From assembly GCA_002371295.1 (NCBI GenBank), contig DFGZ01000138.1:1-16605 (forward strand): a stretch of 16,605 nt of DNA. Direction: 5' to 3'. Below are positions 10,371 through 16,605 of this stretch, in pieces. A program made the translations under genes and the position numbers. How positions within the stretch are numbered: position 1 is the first letter of the stretch; the number at the start of each line of letters is the position of its first letter. The notes beneath the pieces are model-generated. The model made no database searches, had not been told where the DNA came from, and saw only the letters and a program-made list of their open reading frames with translations. This DNA comes from Oribacterium sp. UBA3737. Lineage in GTDB: Bacteria; Bacillota_A; Clostridia; Lachnospirales; Lachnospiraceae.

Positions 10371-10450
10371 ATCTGCTTTGTATCCCGCATATCCTGAATG
10401 AGCTTTTCATAACTACTTTGCATCACGTATGTCCTGAATGAGCTTTTCAT
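10371..10450 (-). repeat. 40-bp imperfect tandem duplication between sensor dctP and kinase
   Basis: 10371-10410 and 10411-10450 are two copies of a 40-base unit, both ending CCTGAATGAGCTTTTCAT and differing at a few positions; a further partial CTTTTCAT lies at 10363-10370. The copy at 10411-10450 encodes the last codons of the DctP-type protein (LIQDIRDAK). The other copy is non-coding and contains an out-of-frame echo of those codons. The 40-base period is not a multiple of three. Confidence 0.85.
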
Positions 10451-11435
10451 TTCCCTCACCATACTTCTTATAGACAGGTTCTACGGCTTTTATCCACTGA
10501 TCCATATCCTCAGGCTCCATGACCTGAACCTCCGATAAACTGCCGTAGGCATCATCCTCCGCCTTCTGGATCTCGGTCCGATTGTAATCCTCCGTCATGG
10601 CGGCAGCCTTACTGATGATCTCCCTGTTCTCCGGTGACAGATGCTCCCAGGTGATCTCGCTCATGACCACCACGCTGGGGGAATACATATGCCCCGTCTT
10701 TATGTAGTATGGTGCCACCTTATAAAACTTATTTGAATAGTAGCTGGATACGGGATTCTCGGCTCCGTCAATCTCCTCCTTCTGAAGAGTATTGTAAAGT
10801 TCCGCATAGGTGGTCACCACCGGAGTGGCACCGAAGGCGCTTATGGTATCTGTAAGGATATCTGATACCATGGTACGGATAGTCTTGCCCTTCATATCGG
10901 ACATGCGGCGTATAGGGGTTTCCGCCATCATAAGATTTCTCACACCCTCATCCAGAAAAAAGAGTCCCACCATCTGAGATCCGCTTTCCTCTATATCATC
11001 AAGTATTCTCTCTCCTATGGGACCGCCGCAGACCTTCCAAAAATGCTCTCTGTCCCTGAAAAGATATGGTAAGGATAAAATCTCCACCTTCATATCCCCT
11101 ATCTTGCTGAGGGAACTGCCATTTGCACGGTAGAAATCCAAAGCACCCATCTGGAGCTGCTGATAGCTCTGAAGCTCATCTCCCAGAATTCCGGAAGTGT
11201 AAATGTCTATCTCAATGCTTCCGTTGCTGAGCTCCTTCACTTTGTCAGCAAAGTAATGTGCGCTTTCTACAGTTATATTTCCCTCAGGATTCACATCTCC
11301 GTATCGCAGCACCAGCTTTCCTTCATCCACAGCCTTGGAACTGTCAGACTCCAGTATCAGCACCACTATCGTCAATAGGCTGGTAAGGATAACCATTGCT
11401 GCCGCGATATAAAGTTTATGATCTTTTTTATTCAT
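10413..11435 (-). CDS. TRAP DctP-family solute-binding protein, signal-anchored, probably a co-sensor
   Basis: A 340-aa DctP-fold protein. Residues of about 8-28 form a hydrophobic segment (LYIAAAMVILTSLLTIVVLI) without a lipobox cysteine, suggesting an uncleaved membrane anchor rather than a lipoprotein. The binding domain shows KLVLRYGDVNP, the conserved ligand arginine R187 in KGKTIRTM and EIDGAENPV with the Asn typical of carboxylate-binding DctPs. I chose the ATG at 11435; an in-frame TTG at 11450 gives five more residues but follows directly on a hairpin. It precedes the YesM/YesN pair, whereas the transporter has its own DctP at 13583-14644. In Bacillus subtilis DctB, a DctP-type protein, is a co-sensor for the DctS kinase, so a sensory role is the best reading. 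An alternative is a second substrate receptor for the same DctQM. Confidence 0.88.
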   Translation of the reverse strand: MNKKDHKLYIAAAMVILTSLLTIVVLILESDSSKAVDEGKLVLRYGDVNPEGNITVESAHYFADKVKELSNGSIEIDIYTSGILGDELQSYQQLQMGALDFYRANGSSLSKIGDMKVEILSLPYLFRDREHFWKVCGGPIGERILDDIEESGSQMVGLFFLDEGVRNLMMAETPIRRMSDMKGKTIRTMVSDILTDTISAFGATPVVTTYAELYNTLQKEEIDGAENPVSSYYSNKFYKVAPYYIKTGHMYSPSVVVMSEITWEHLSPENREIISKAAAMTEDYNRTEIQKAEDDAYGSLSEVQVMEPEDMDQWIKAVEPVYKKYGEGNEKLIQDIRDAK

Positions 11436-11450
11436 CTTTATACACCACAA

Positions 11451-13582: not shown

Positions 13583-14644
13583 TTACTGGATTCCGGCTTC
13601 CTTATAGATTGACTCTCTGAGTTCTGTCCAGCCAAGCTCCTCATAAGCCTTCTTTGCAGCTTCCTTAAATGCATCCTTATCTACTTCTGTTACAGTCATA
13701 CCATTCTCTGTAAGGGTCTTTTCAAGATCAGCCTGAGCTGCGATTACCTCCTGTGCGTTCTGATATGCGCAGGACTGGAAATCCTTCTCTACGATTTCCT
13801 GATATTCCTGAGGAAGCTCATCGAACCACTTCTGTCCGCATACTACGAAATTGAAAAGATTGATATGTTCTGTCTTGGAGATGTTTTCGCAAACTTCATA
13901 AAGCTTTGAAGAAACGGCTGAAGTATACTGAACTTCACATCCGTCGATAGACTTGGTCTGGATTCCGTTGTAAACCTCTGACCAGGCGATATTATACGGT
14001 GTTGCGCCCAGTGCCTCGATTGACTTTGAGTATGGAGCGGCTCCCGGTGTACGGATAACTACACCGCTGAGGTCAGCCGGTGTCTTGAATTCCTTATGTC
14101 CCATAAATGAACGGGCACCATCATAGTAGTTATAGCAGAGCGGGTGAAGTCCCTGAGTATGAAGCTCACTGTCCCATCCCTTAAAGGTATCTGTTTCCAT
14201 GACCTTCATTCCATCTTCATAATTGTCTACAAAGTAAGCCATATTGAGGATTCCGATATCATTTACATAGCTTGAAAGACGTCCTGCATCTGTAAGAACT
14301 GCGATTCCCATTCCCTGAAGGGCCTGGTCGATCATATCTTCTTCCGCGCCAAGCTGACTTGAAGGATAGATAGTTACGAGAACATGTCCGTCTGTATCTT
14401 CCTTTATCTTATCTGCTGCTGCCTGCATTCCTCCATATATCATAGACGTGTCTGTCTGGGTGGTGGAAAGCTTAAGCTCATATACCTTTCCGTCATCTGC
14501 CGGCGCCTGTTCCTTTGCCGCTGCTTCTGTTTCTGCAGTTTTTGCAGACTCTGCCTTTGGTGCGTCGGCACTCTTGCTTCCACATGCTGTAAGTGCAGCG
14601 ATCATAGCTGCAGCAAATGTCATGGCAACCAGATTTCTCTTCAT
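13583..14644 (-). CDS. dctP: TRAP transporter solute-binding lipoprotein
   Basis: A 353-aa extracytoplasmic binding protein. The start is the ATG at 14644, with AGGAGG (14653-14658) 8 bases upstream; it begins MKRN and reaches a lipobox LTAC with C21, so it should be a membrane-tethered lipoprotein. Residues of about 22-55 are an Ala/Glu/Lys linker. The DctP fold follows: VYELKLSTTQTDTSM, YPSSQLGAEEDMIDQALQG, then VVIRTPGA with the conserved ligand arginine R198. The segment after IDG reads CEVQYTS instead of the more common xENP, so the pocket probably differs from that of the second DctP at 10413-11435. It leads the operon dctP-dctQ-dctM. Substrate unknown. Confidence 0.95.
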   Translation of the reverse strand: MKRNLVAMTFAAAMIAALTACGSKSADAPKAESAKTAETEAAAKEQAPADDGKVYELKLSTTQTDTSMIYGGMQAAADKIKEDTDGHVLVTIYPSSQLGAEEDMIDQALQGMGIAVLTDAGRLSSYVNDIGILNMAYFVDNYEDGMKVMETDTFKGWDSELHTQGLHPLCYNYYDGARSFMGHKEFKTPADLSGVVIRTPGAAPYSKSIEALGATPYNIAWSEVYNGIQTKSIDGCEVQYTSAVSSKLYEVCENISKTEHINLFNFVVCGQKWFDELPQEYQEIVEKDFQSCAYQNAQEVIAAQADLEKTLTENGMTVTEVDKDAFKEAAKKAYEELGWTELRESIYKEAGIQ

Positions 14645-14694
14645 AATTTCTTCCTCCTGAAATACTGTAGTTACTATTTGGAAAGCCCTTAAGC

Positions 14695-14815: not shown

Positions 14816-14861
14816 CATACATGTATACAGAGGCTCTATCCCACCTGCCTGCCTTATAAAT

Positions 14862-14891
14862 AAAAAGTGGCAGAGCACTAAACGCCCTGCC
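14862..14891 (-). terminator. Intrinsic terminator after the prephenate dehydratase-like lipoprotein gene
   Basis: On the minus strand GGCAGGGC pairs with GTGCTCTGCC (8 pairs including one G-U; 14869-14891), followed directly by ACTTTTTATTT. It lies about 100 bases after the stop at 14990 and separates that gene from the TRAP operon, which therefore needs its own promoter. Confidence 0.75.
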
Positions 14892-14989
14892 GCATTAAAC
14901 ACATAAAATGTATTATTTCTTGTTTTGAGTGAGATATAGCCTTGCCGGGTCACACAGAACCAAGTAAGCTACTTTCACTCGGACCATAC

Positions 14990-16063
14990 TCACACAACCG
15001 GCACCTCAACAGCCCCGAAGCTGCCTAGGAAACGGACACCTTCCTGCCCGGAGACTTCTTCGATTTCTTCTTTCGTAACACCACCCGGCTTTTCGGTCTC
15101 TATGATGTAGTTGTATCGTCCAAGCTTACTGCCCTCAGGTCTGTCATGGATGGTCACCATTTCAAGCCCTGCATCATGTATGGTCAGTATGATGTCATCG
15201 ATCCTGTTTGCCTCGCAATCCGCCACAAACAGTGCACGATCATTCCCTTCACTTTCCAGCGGAGCCTTCGAAAGAACATAGAAACGGGTCTTATTTGCAT
15301 CAGTGATCTGAACATTTTCAGCCAGCACGGTCAAACCATAAAGCTCTGCAGCTCCGGGAGAAGCGATTGCCGCGATGGTCTTGTCTCCCTGCTCTGCAAC
15401 ATAACTTGCTGCCGCTGCGGTGCTTGCCATCTCAGAAACCTCCGCATCCGGCATATGCTCTGCTCGCCACTTCTCAGTCTGCTTTATGCCCTGGGCATGT
15501 GAGCATACAGTTTTAATGTCTTCGACCGTAGCTCCTTCAACACCCATGAGAGTCTGGTTTATGGGCAGGACCACTTCGCCCACCACATATACATTTTCTT
15601 CCGCTATCAATGCATCAACATATCCTGTAACGGCTCCACCCAGAGTATTTTCCTGCGGAATGACCGCATACTCCGACCCGCCTGTCATCACATCCGAAAT
15701 AGCCTCCGAAACCGTATCCTTCGGTAAAAATGTTCCTTTTTCTCCAAAGAAGAACCGGGTCGCCTCCTCTGTATAAGTCCCTGCAGGTCCCAGGAAGCTG
15801 ACCTTCGCCTCTGTAAAAGCATCACTATCGATAGTGTTTTCTGCCCCGGACACTGTTTCTCCAGTGTTATCTGTAACCCTCTCTTTATCATCTCTGCCTG
15901 ATTCAGCGTCAGCCTTTACCTCTGCCTTATTTTCAGCCCTTGTAGCCCTTGTTTCCTTCTCCTGCGCAGTGGTCTCTATAGCCGGAACCGCATCATAACC
16001 GCAGCCGCTCACAGTCCACATCAGCAAATTCACAGCCATAAAAAAAGCAACCGTTCTCTTCAT
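14990..16063 (-). CDS. Exported lipoprotein with prephenate dehydratase and ACT domains
   Basis: A 357-aa protein. Residues 1-21 are a lipoprotein signal (MKR, hydrophobic core, VSGC with C21). Residues 22-87 are a charged Glu/Lys/Asp/Ala linker. Residues of about 88-265 match prephenate dehydratase: VSFLGPAGTYTEEA from 88, PQENT with E138-N139, SHAQ with H189 and Q191, STAAAA from 214, then AAELYGLTVLAENVQ and T259-R260-F261, the TRF motif carrying the catalytic Thr of the family. Residues of about 275-345 look like the ACT domain, but the ESRP motif reads HDRP and the GALV motif is not evident. Start supported by AAGGA 8 bases upstream. The fold resembles type 2 binding proteins, so it may be an external sensor or binding protein instead of an enzyme. 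Biosynthetic copies are cytoplasmic, which makes the export signal unusual. Confidence 0.9.
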   Translation of the reverse strand: MKRTVAFFMAVNLLMWTVSGCGYDAVPAIETTAQEKETRATRAENKAEVKADAESGRDDKERVTDNTGETVSGAENTIDSDAFTEAKVSFLGPAGTYTEEATRFFFGEKGTFLPKDTVSEAISDVMTGGSEYAVIPQENTLGGAVTGYVDALIAEENVYVVGEVVLPINQTLMGVEGATVEDIKTVCSHAQGIKQTEKWRAEHMPDAEVSEMASTAAAASYVAEQGDKTIAAIASPGAAELYGLTVLAENVQITDANKTRFYVLSKAPLESEGNDRALFVADCEANRIDDIILTIHDAGLEMVTIHDRPEGSKLGRYNYIIETEKPGGVTKEEIEEVSGQEGVRFLGSFGAVEVPVV

Positions 16064-16106
16064 AAACTCTTTCCTTTCCCATAATATGATGTAAGGGTCA
16101 AAAGTA

Positions 16107-16154: not shown

Positions 16155-16605
16155 TTACCCGCAGTATTCCCAGCTGTCACTGTATTCATCGTAACAGTAC
16201 ATGGAATCCGTGTCCTCATCATAATAGTACATGCTGTCTGTTTCATCATCATAAAGATAGAGATAGCCGTCATCGTAGCAGTACCATATCTCTTCCTCAT
16301 AGTCATATATCCAGTCATCAAAGCAGTCGTCGGTATCCGCATAATAGTTCGGATCGCAGCCTGAGTCATAGTCGCAGTATAGTCCGTTGTCATAATAAGA
16401 GCTATAGCCTGAATTATACCCTGAACTGTAATCTCCATCGTAGCAGGAGCTGTAATCGTAGCCATACTGGCAGGAACCGCCGTTACTGATGTTGCAGCCG
16501 TACTCACTCTCATAGTTCCCCCAGCCGCCCCAGCTGTTCTCAAAGACATTATAATCGTAATAATCACTGTAGCCGGAGCTCTTCACAAATCCCTTAAGCC
16601 AGTCT
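16155..16605 (-). CDS. Tyr/Asp/Cys-rich low-complexity protein, 5' end beyond the window
   Basis: The minus-strand frame is open to the window edge, continuing upstream of an in-frame GTG at 16586 as ...DWLKGFV, so the gene is probably truncated by the window. The GTG has AAGGG only 4 bases upstream and could be a real start of a 143-aa protein, but I favour the longer gene. In those 143 residues about 33 are Tyr and 9 are Cys, with abundant Asp, Ser and Gly and few basic residues. The C-terminal end has near-repeats about 10 residues long: DETDSMYYY, DEDTDSMYCY, DEYSDSWEYC. No known domain, no signal peptide and no membrane helix are visible in this part. Function unknown; strand choice rests on the clear repeats and the plausible stop and terminator after it. 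Confidence 0.6.
   Translation of the reverse strand, partial: DWLKGFVKSSGYSDYYDYNVFENSWGGWGNYESEYGCNISNGGSCQYGYDYSSCYDGDYSSGYNSGYSSYYDNGLYCDYDSGCDPNYYADTDDCFDDWIYDYEEEIWYCYDDGYLYLYDDETDSMYYYDEDTDSMYCYDEYSDSWEYCG

Follow-up and report, generated by a model that had tools for sequence, protein, structure and literature searches.

Why would a bacterium place a prephenate dehydratase (PDT), known as the cytosolic P-protein PheA, on the outer side of its membrane? The question is raised by a 16,605-nucleotide stretch of Oribacterium sp. UBA3737 (contig DFGZ01000138.1, here called the window over its full length), in which one gene encodes a PDT body behind a signal peptide and a lipobox. This combination is real and lies far beyond chance, and its sequence makes the product almost certainly an exported lipoprotein of the PDT fold. 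For its role, we give an even chance to a membrane-anchored extracytoplasmic enzyme of that fold acting on external prephenate or a close analogue.

The open reading frame (ORF) begins with ATG and encodes 357 residues (Table 1). Its sole Pfam match at an E value of ≤10 was the PDT family PF00800 (E = 9e-55, 185.7 bits against a gathering score of 25.2, covering positions 1 to 179 of the 181 in the profile). No ACT model was matched at that threshold, nor was a sequence family like that of PheC, which resembles solute-binding proteins (SBP_bac_3). The chorismate mutase (CM) domain CM_2 also gave no match, so the protein is unlike the fusions of CM with cyclohexadienyl dehydratase (CDT). Structure modeling, which the preliminary description of this gene had proposed, returned a PDT with an ACT fold: the AlphaFold model (mean predicted local distance difference test score of 91.1, predicted template modeling score of 0.86) aligns with whole PDT structures, their ACT part included, and its C-terminal part runs in beta-alpha-beta-beta-alpha-beta order. 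The signal peptide and VSGC lipobox in that description were borne out, with Cys21 as the predicted lipidation site. So was a charged linker, with 16 acidic (9 Glu, 7 Asp) and 8 basic (4 Lys, 4 Arg) residues, although with the boundaries that we set it spans 63 residues and not 65. The PDT motifs listed there, E138-N139, STA (residues 214 to 216), and TRF, are all present.

Export is a property of a whole group of PDTs. Protein searches at E ≤ 1e-10 returned 1,504 proteins with the window protein as the query and 1,796 with a member of a second subfamily, totals that may contain cytosolic PDTs; the 120 best of each, 240 altogether, were examined. An N-terminal hydrophobic segment is present in 236 of these 240 relatives versus 2 of 52 cytosolic PDTs, and a strict lipobox pattern in 207 versus none. 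The preliminary description had named signal-less close homologues as evidence that would speak against export. Of the four relatives without the segment, three (P0010, P0132, and P0138) start within the signal and lipobox stretch, which leaves P0174 with none as its start is called. Some exported members have a signal of the signal peptidase I type, and one (L017) has what by eye resembles a transmembrane anchor.

A genome scan for exported PDTs gave 28 loci. Alignment and tree held 81 rows after identical sequences were collapsed (29 exported and 52 cytosolic, labels that were assigned from the loci and their starts); L026, in two pieces at a contig edge, and L036, the same gene as L022, were omitted. 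A single branch set the exported PDTs apart in every one of the 200 bootstrap trees (100/100), and its stem measures 2.04 changes per column in the midpoint-rooted drawing. They divide into subfamilies of 20 rows (100/99) and, more weakly, 9 rows (83/88), and one genome (G016) carries a member of each. Hosts belong to the Lachnospiraceae, Erysipelotrichaceae, Oscillospiraceae, and Clostridiaceae, although many rows are metagenome assembled and single host names may be wrong. Judged from these sequences, the exported PDTs are one clade in several families of Bacillota and not a lone odd gene. One subfamily B relative, P0135, has the source label Treponema sp., outside the Bacillota, which could reflect transfer or a misbinned contig.

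Residues of the active site were mapped on Escherichia coli PheA (L089). E138, N139, S188, Q195, T259, R260, and F261 (E159, N160, S208, Q215, T278, R279, and F280 in E. coli) are kept in all 29 exported rows, and the position of E. coli E232 is A213 in the window protein and Glu in just 8 of 52 cytosolic PDTs. The residues other than E159, E232, and the TRF motif we take to have the catalytic roles usually assigned to them. The roles of E159 and E232 are described in PMC8192741 and those of the TRF, GALV, and ESRP motifs in PMC10845154. The preliminary description had left open a binding lipoprotein, an extracellular enzyme, or a surface sensor. The kept active site favors the enzyme over mere binding or sensing, and on the strength of these residues the exported PDTs are likely to be catalytic.

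The ACT domain tells a different story. The Phe-binding motifs GALV and ESRP (E. coli residues 329 to 332) are not present as such in the window protein, and the altered motifs seen earlier, HDRP for ESRP and no clear GALV, were confirmed by alignment with the 52 cytosolic PDTs. The GALV positions are changed, with Gly at the position of E. coli G309 in 51 of 52 cytosolic but 2 of 29 exported PDTs. At the position of E329, 28 of 29 exported PDTs have His versus Glu in 46 of 52 cytosolic ones; at S330, 27 of 29 have Asp versus Ser in 51 of 52; R331 and P332 are retained. Since the replacement motif is itself conserved, the regulatory site appears to have changed rather than to be decaying. Between the window and Oribacterium sp. 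strain C9, the ratio of nonsynonymous to synonymous substitution rates (dN/dS) was 0.12 over the whole gene and 0.08 over the domain; four other pairs gave values of 0.06 to 0.24. By these ratios the exported PDT gene is under purifying selection.

Whether the exported protein could be the only PheA of its host had been a concern from the start; neither that result nor the signal-less homologues named as the other refutation turned up. In the nearest named relative, Oribacterium sp. strain C9, an exported PDT (L001) coexists with a separate cytosolic CM-PDT (L034), and a cytosolic PDT accompanies the exported one in 28 of 36 genomes. The concern is not void for the other 8, in which the exported PDT is the sole one found. 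Among the first 28 genomes, a cytosolic PDT is present in 22, and in 15 of them it has a CM match over the cutoff in the same frame; 6 (G002, G003, G004, G007, G013, and G028) have the exported PDT only. Eight later genomes came from family scans; all eight exported PDTs have a lipobox by eye, and six of the genomes have a second, signal-less PDT. One cytosolic PDT (L144, G477:C7) is the C-terminal half of a 562-residue ORF whose N-terminal part by eye resembles enzymes of the folate pathway (FolB/FolK). An ORF of ∼960 residues (L112, G011:C40) matches chorismate synthase plus CM, and its contig also contains a PDT frame.

Chorismate synthase was found in 27 and CM in 26 of the first 28 genomes, and each in 6 of the 8 later ones. 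The two later genomes with the exported PDT only, G705 and G728, are related (1.6 and 1.5 Mb, from the family of G028) and gave no match in searches for chorismate synthase, 3-dehydroquinate (DHQ) synthase, or CM_2; their matches to prephenate dehydrogenase (PDH_N) were weak and under the cutoff. Their single PF00275 protein matches one PF00275 protein of G610 at 46 to 47% identity and the other at 22 to 24%. We take the first of these as a probable MurA and the second, because it lies beside prephenate dehydrogenase, as a probable AroA, and on this assignment AroA was not detected in G705 or G728. G007 and G028 also have no match to DHQ synthase or PDH_N, yet they have chorismate synthase and CM_2. 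The neighborhood around the exported PDT is the same in G705 and G728, with a dN/dS of 0.064 between them. If these assemblies are near complete, prephenate made by the cell itself cannot be the substrate in these two hosts, and because the gene is kept in cells seemingly unable to make prephenate, the enzyme probably acts on what other organisms supply.

The following sequence of events would fit these findings. The signal peptide would route the protein through Sec, lipidated Cys21 would hold it on the outside of the membrane, and with the linker as a spacer the domain could extend into the wall. In that position the domain would dehydrate and decarboxylate prephenate or a close cyclohexadienyl analogue shed by lysed or leaking neighbors or digested plant cells, and the product, phenylpyruvate or similar, would be taken up, transaminated, or fermented. 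Feedback by phenylalanine would be lost, or another ligand would have taken its place. We slightly favor prephenate as the substrate and give a source outside the cell about even odds. More tentatively, a surface PDT clade with a respecified ACT domain (HDRP, nonphenylalanine ligand) might let gut and rumen Bacillota, including species without a shikimate pathway, use shed prephenate or an analogue as a shared extracellular intermediate, an extension that we regard as doubtful.

Several observations weigh against a surface enzyme of prephenate. The window protein (198.8 bits) and three relatives (216.9, 216.5, and 202.4 bits) all fall below the curated cutoff of 219 for the NCBIfam prephenate dehydratase equivalog PRK11898, while cytosolic L034 exceeds it (230.2 bits). 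I135, Q137, G142, Y148, W199, and Y262 are present in 29 of 29 exported and at most 1 of 52 cytosolic PDTs (I135 and Q137 in none), which makes all six diagnostic of the clade, and since they lie close in sequence to the catalytic residues, the substrate may not be prephenate. Prephenate is scarce and acid labile. The assemblies of G705 and G728 are possibly incomplete, and as close kin the two count as one case. Finally, among 29 gene sets (the window plus the 28 loci, which reach at most ∼10 kb per side, many of them less), no neighbor family besides PDT is present in more than 3, and no transporter, aminotransferase, or exported CM is a conserved partner. An exported CM was rejected as a partner on a further count: the first 28 genomes gave 33 CM_2 matches, and none of the 30 ORFs inspected by eye showed a signal start.

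The clade-specific residues speak for an extracellular enzyme with another substrate, which could be arogenate, an acyl-homoserine lactone (AHL) or other amide, or an unknown cyclohexadienyl acid. The retention of the gene in G705 and G728 without a prephenate pathway points the same way, and there is a precedent in GqqA of Komagataeibacter europaeus (7am0, 7alz), a PDT with added AHL acylase activity (PMC8192741). However, the known PDT catalytic residues are unchanged, and the sequence indicates no other substrate. We consider a different substrate unlikely and prefer an enzyme of prephenate or a close analogue.

Equally unlikely in our view is an extracellular binding or sensor lipoprotein, in which the PDT cleft would bind an aromatic or other small acid and pass it to a transporter or membrane sensor without catalysis. 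Lipoproteins are the usual form of binding proteins in Gram-positive bacteria. Binding proteins are among the nearest folds after the PDTs in the structure match lists, where the absence of a family from the second list does not exclude that family. In the window, the next genes encode a tripartite ATP-independent periplasmic (TRAP) transporter, including a DctP of its own, and a two-component system; SpoIIE-type proteins, as signaling phosphatases, lie near the gene together with exported HAD or HAD plus histidine-acid-phosphatase proteins in L162:1869-8048 and L027:5746-12027; and in L022 a methyl-accepting chemotaxis protein follows it. Against this, every catalytic residue, T259 included, is kept in all 29 rows. 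Between this gene and those of the TRAP transporter lies a terminator-like hairpin (a consensus scan found 3 such sites in the region versus 1.4 expected, and the RNA fold of 14850-14915 has a z score of −2.86), and DctP, DctQ, and DctM of the window had no match at E ≤ 1e-5 among the neighbors of the 28 loci and the 8 later ones, Oribacterium sp. strain C9 included. The TRAP operon was rejected as a general partner on these grounds. These surroundings agree with a surface enzyme that works on its own, without pointing to a pathway.

An enzyme that converts the host's own leaked chorismate or prephenate, a Gram-positive counterpart of the hidden overflow pathway proposed for Pseudomonas PheC, is quite improbable. 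The idea has been reported for exported CM and PheC (PMC10520331), and most host genomes do encode chorismate synthase and CM, but G705 and G728 retain the gene although the pathway was not detected there, and no sign of export was seen in the 30 CM ORFs inspected. A miscalled start in front of a truly cytosolic PDT, for which we found nothing in favor, can be dismissed as nearly negligible given the N-terminal counts against the cytosolic controls and the separate clade.

The distribution of the exported enzyme is patchy, as judged from its low counts (the central genome included in each): 1 of 291 genomes drawn from the class of G001, namely, G001 itself, 5 of 299 from its family, and 5 of 195 from that of G028. 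Wide presence across the Clostridia was rejected on these counts; the next best match in the class of G001 is 40% identical and of the mutase-fused kind. Mobile carriage was likewise rejected. Viral contigs searched with two peptide patterns contained no confirmed relative, and plasmid and phage records (the best 10 of 77 and the best 10 of 16) reached identities of at most 34.7%, about the level of cytosolic PDTs. A ruminant gut site is named in the title of 7 of 28 loci, and 8 more have RUG names, presumably rumen genomes; these counts have no base rate, and enrichment is not claimed.

Exported PDTs also occur in unusual arrangements. In Lachnospiraceae strain MC2017, a 965-residue ORF (L022:5913-8810) with a lipoprotein-like start, N- and C-terminal domains of glycoside hydrolase family 3, and a C-terminal PDT is a predicted extracellular glycosidase-PDT fusion. 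A 577-residue exported PDT (L018:7068-8801) has an N-terminal part of ∼300 residues without a confident Pfam match (weakly phytase-like and SMP-30), P0016 and P0032 have extra N-terminal parts of other kinds, and P0011 has an extra C-terminal part. The gene at L026:149-891 is in two pieces in different frames, a true break or a sequencing error.

Neighboring genes were called as longest ORFs only, and because an antisense ORF displaced the PDT in L009, L018, and L023, PDT itself clusters in 26 of 29 sets. Families reaching three sets were four from a near-identical Solobacterium trio, a glycosidase-like protein (L007, L018, and L028), a receiver domain, a cysteine-synthase-like protein (L016, L024, and L028), the antisense ORF, and one other (L020, L022, and L026). 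An NSS-type symporter, from a family that carries amino acids, occurs in both L011:776-2194 and L012, two loci with exported PDTs that pair as sisters in the tree. In the window, two DctP-type binding proteins (10413-11450 and 13583-14665, minus strand) flank DctQ- and DctM-like genes by eye; the second, beside the two-component system, may be a sensing partner rather than a transporter part. Upstream of the PDT gene lies an open-ended ORF (16155-16604, minus strand), rich in Tyr, Asp, Ser, and Gly, with no Pfam or PHROG match.

Table 1. Features of the exported PDT gene and its surroundings in the window
Feature	Position	Strand	Basis or remark
Exported PDT lipoprotein gene	14990..16063	−	ORF with stop codon included, Pfam
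Purine-rich ribosome-binding-like stretch GGGAAAGGAAAGAG	16067..16080	−	3 bases upstream of ATG; read from sequence
Predicted type II signal peptide MKRTVAFFMAVNLLMWTVSG, residues 1-20	16004..16063	−	Sequence; family-wide N-terminal test with cytosolic control
Lipobox cysteine Cys21 (VSGC, residues 18-21), predicted lipidation site	16001..16003	−	Sequence pattern
Charged linker, residues 22-84	15812..16000	−	Boundaries as set in analysis
PDT catalytic domain, residues 88-267	15263..15802	−	
IPQENT, residues 135-140, including catalytic E138-N139	15644..15661	−	29/29 exported rows
S188, H189 ... Q195 (E. coli S208, H209, Q215)	15479..15502	−	29/29 exported, 52/52 cytosolic
TRF motif, residues 259-261 (E. 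coli T278-R279-F280)	15281..15289	−	29/29 exported
ACT-fold C-terminal domain, residues ∼276-353	15005..15238	−	AlphaFold secondary structure, structural match
HDRP, residues 306-309, at the place of ESRP	15137..15148	−	Alignment
Intrinsic-terminator-like hairpin and T run, 3′ of the gene, ahead of TRAP transporter genes	14869..14891	−	Consensus scan, RNA fold

Exported CMs and dehydratases have been called an enigma, with no obvious substrate or use for the product at their site (PMC10520331). With the exported PDTs, the puzzle arises in the Bacillota for another enzyme family; it spans many species and extends to two related genomes that apparently lack the pathway. If the exported PDTs do turn over prephenate, the substrate would be public, and gut microbes would exchange intermediates of the shikimate pathway. 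In addition, an intact active site paired with a replaced regulatory motif amounts to a natural experiment in ACT-domain specificity. Among titles and the beginnings of abstracts, with most subscription papers outside the scope, we found no report of a bacterial exported or lipoprotein PDT beyond PheC and the CM-CDT fusions, and nothing useful on rumen phenylpyruvate.

Compared with cytosolic PheA (PF00800; 3mwb, 6vh5, 2qmx, and 2qmw), the window protein has the same fold, active-site residues, and order of PDT and ACT domains; it differs as a predicted exported lipoprotein without a fused CM, with ESRP and GALV replaced, and in a separate clade on a long stem. GqqA is likewise a PDT, but nothing in the exported PDTs points to its AHL acylase activity. 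EqPdt of the powdery mildew Erysiphe quercicola is secreted and active on prephenate (PMC11980547), so both it and, by prediction, the exported PDTs act as PDTs outside their own cell. In contrast, EqPdt is fungal, has no predicted signal peptide, and can also serve fungal metabolism. A further parallel is PheC with the exported CM-CDT fusions, which are described as rare, proteobacterial, not feedback regulated, and without a known role (PMC10520331). The preliminary description had set PheC aside as an unrelated binding-protein fold, which overlooks that the PDT catalytic domain is itself of the periplasmic-binding-protein type (PMC8192741 and the structure lists). Both systems place a dehydratase of the shikimate pathway outside the cytoplasm of organisms that also have a cytosolic CM-PDT (PMC10520331), and the lack of feedback regulation described for the former is paralleled by the changed Phe-site motifs of the exported PDTs. 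They differ in that the CM-CDT fusions carry a CM domain and occur in Proteobacteria, whereas the exported PDTs combine PF00800 with an ACT domain in predicted lipoproteins of the Bacillota.
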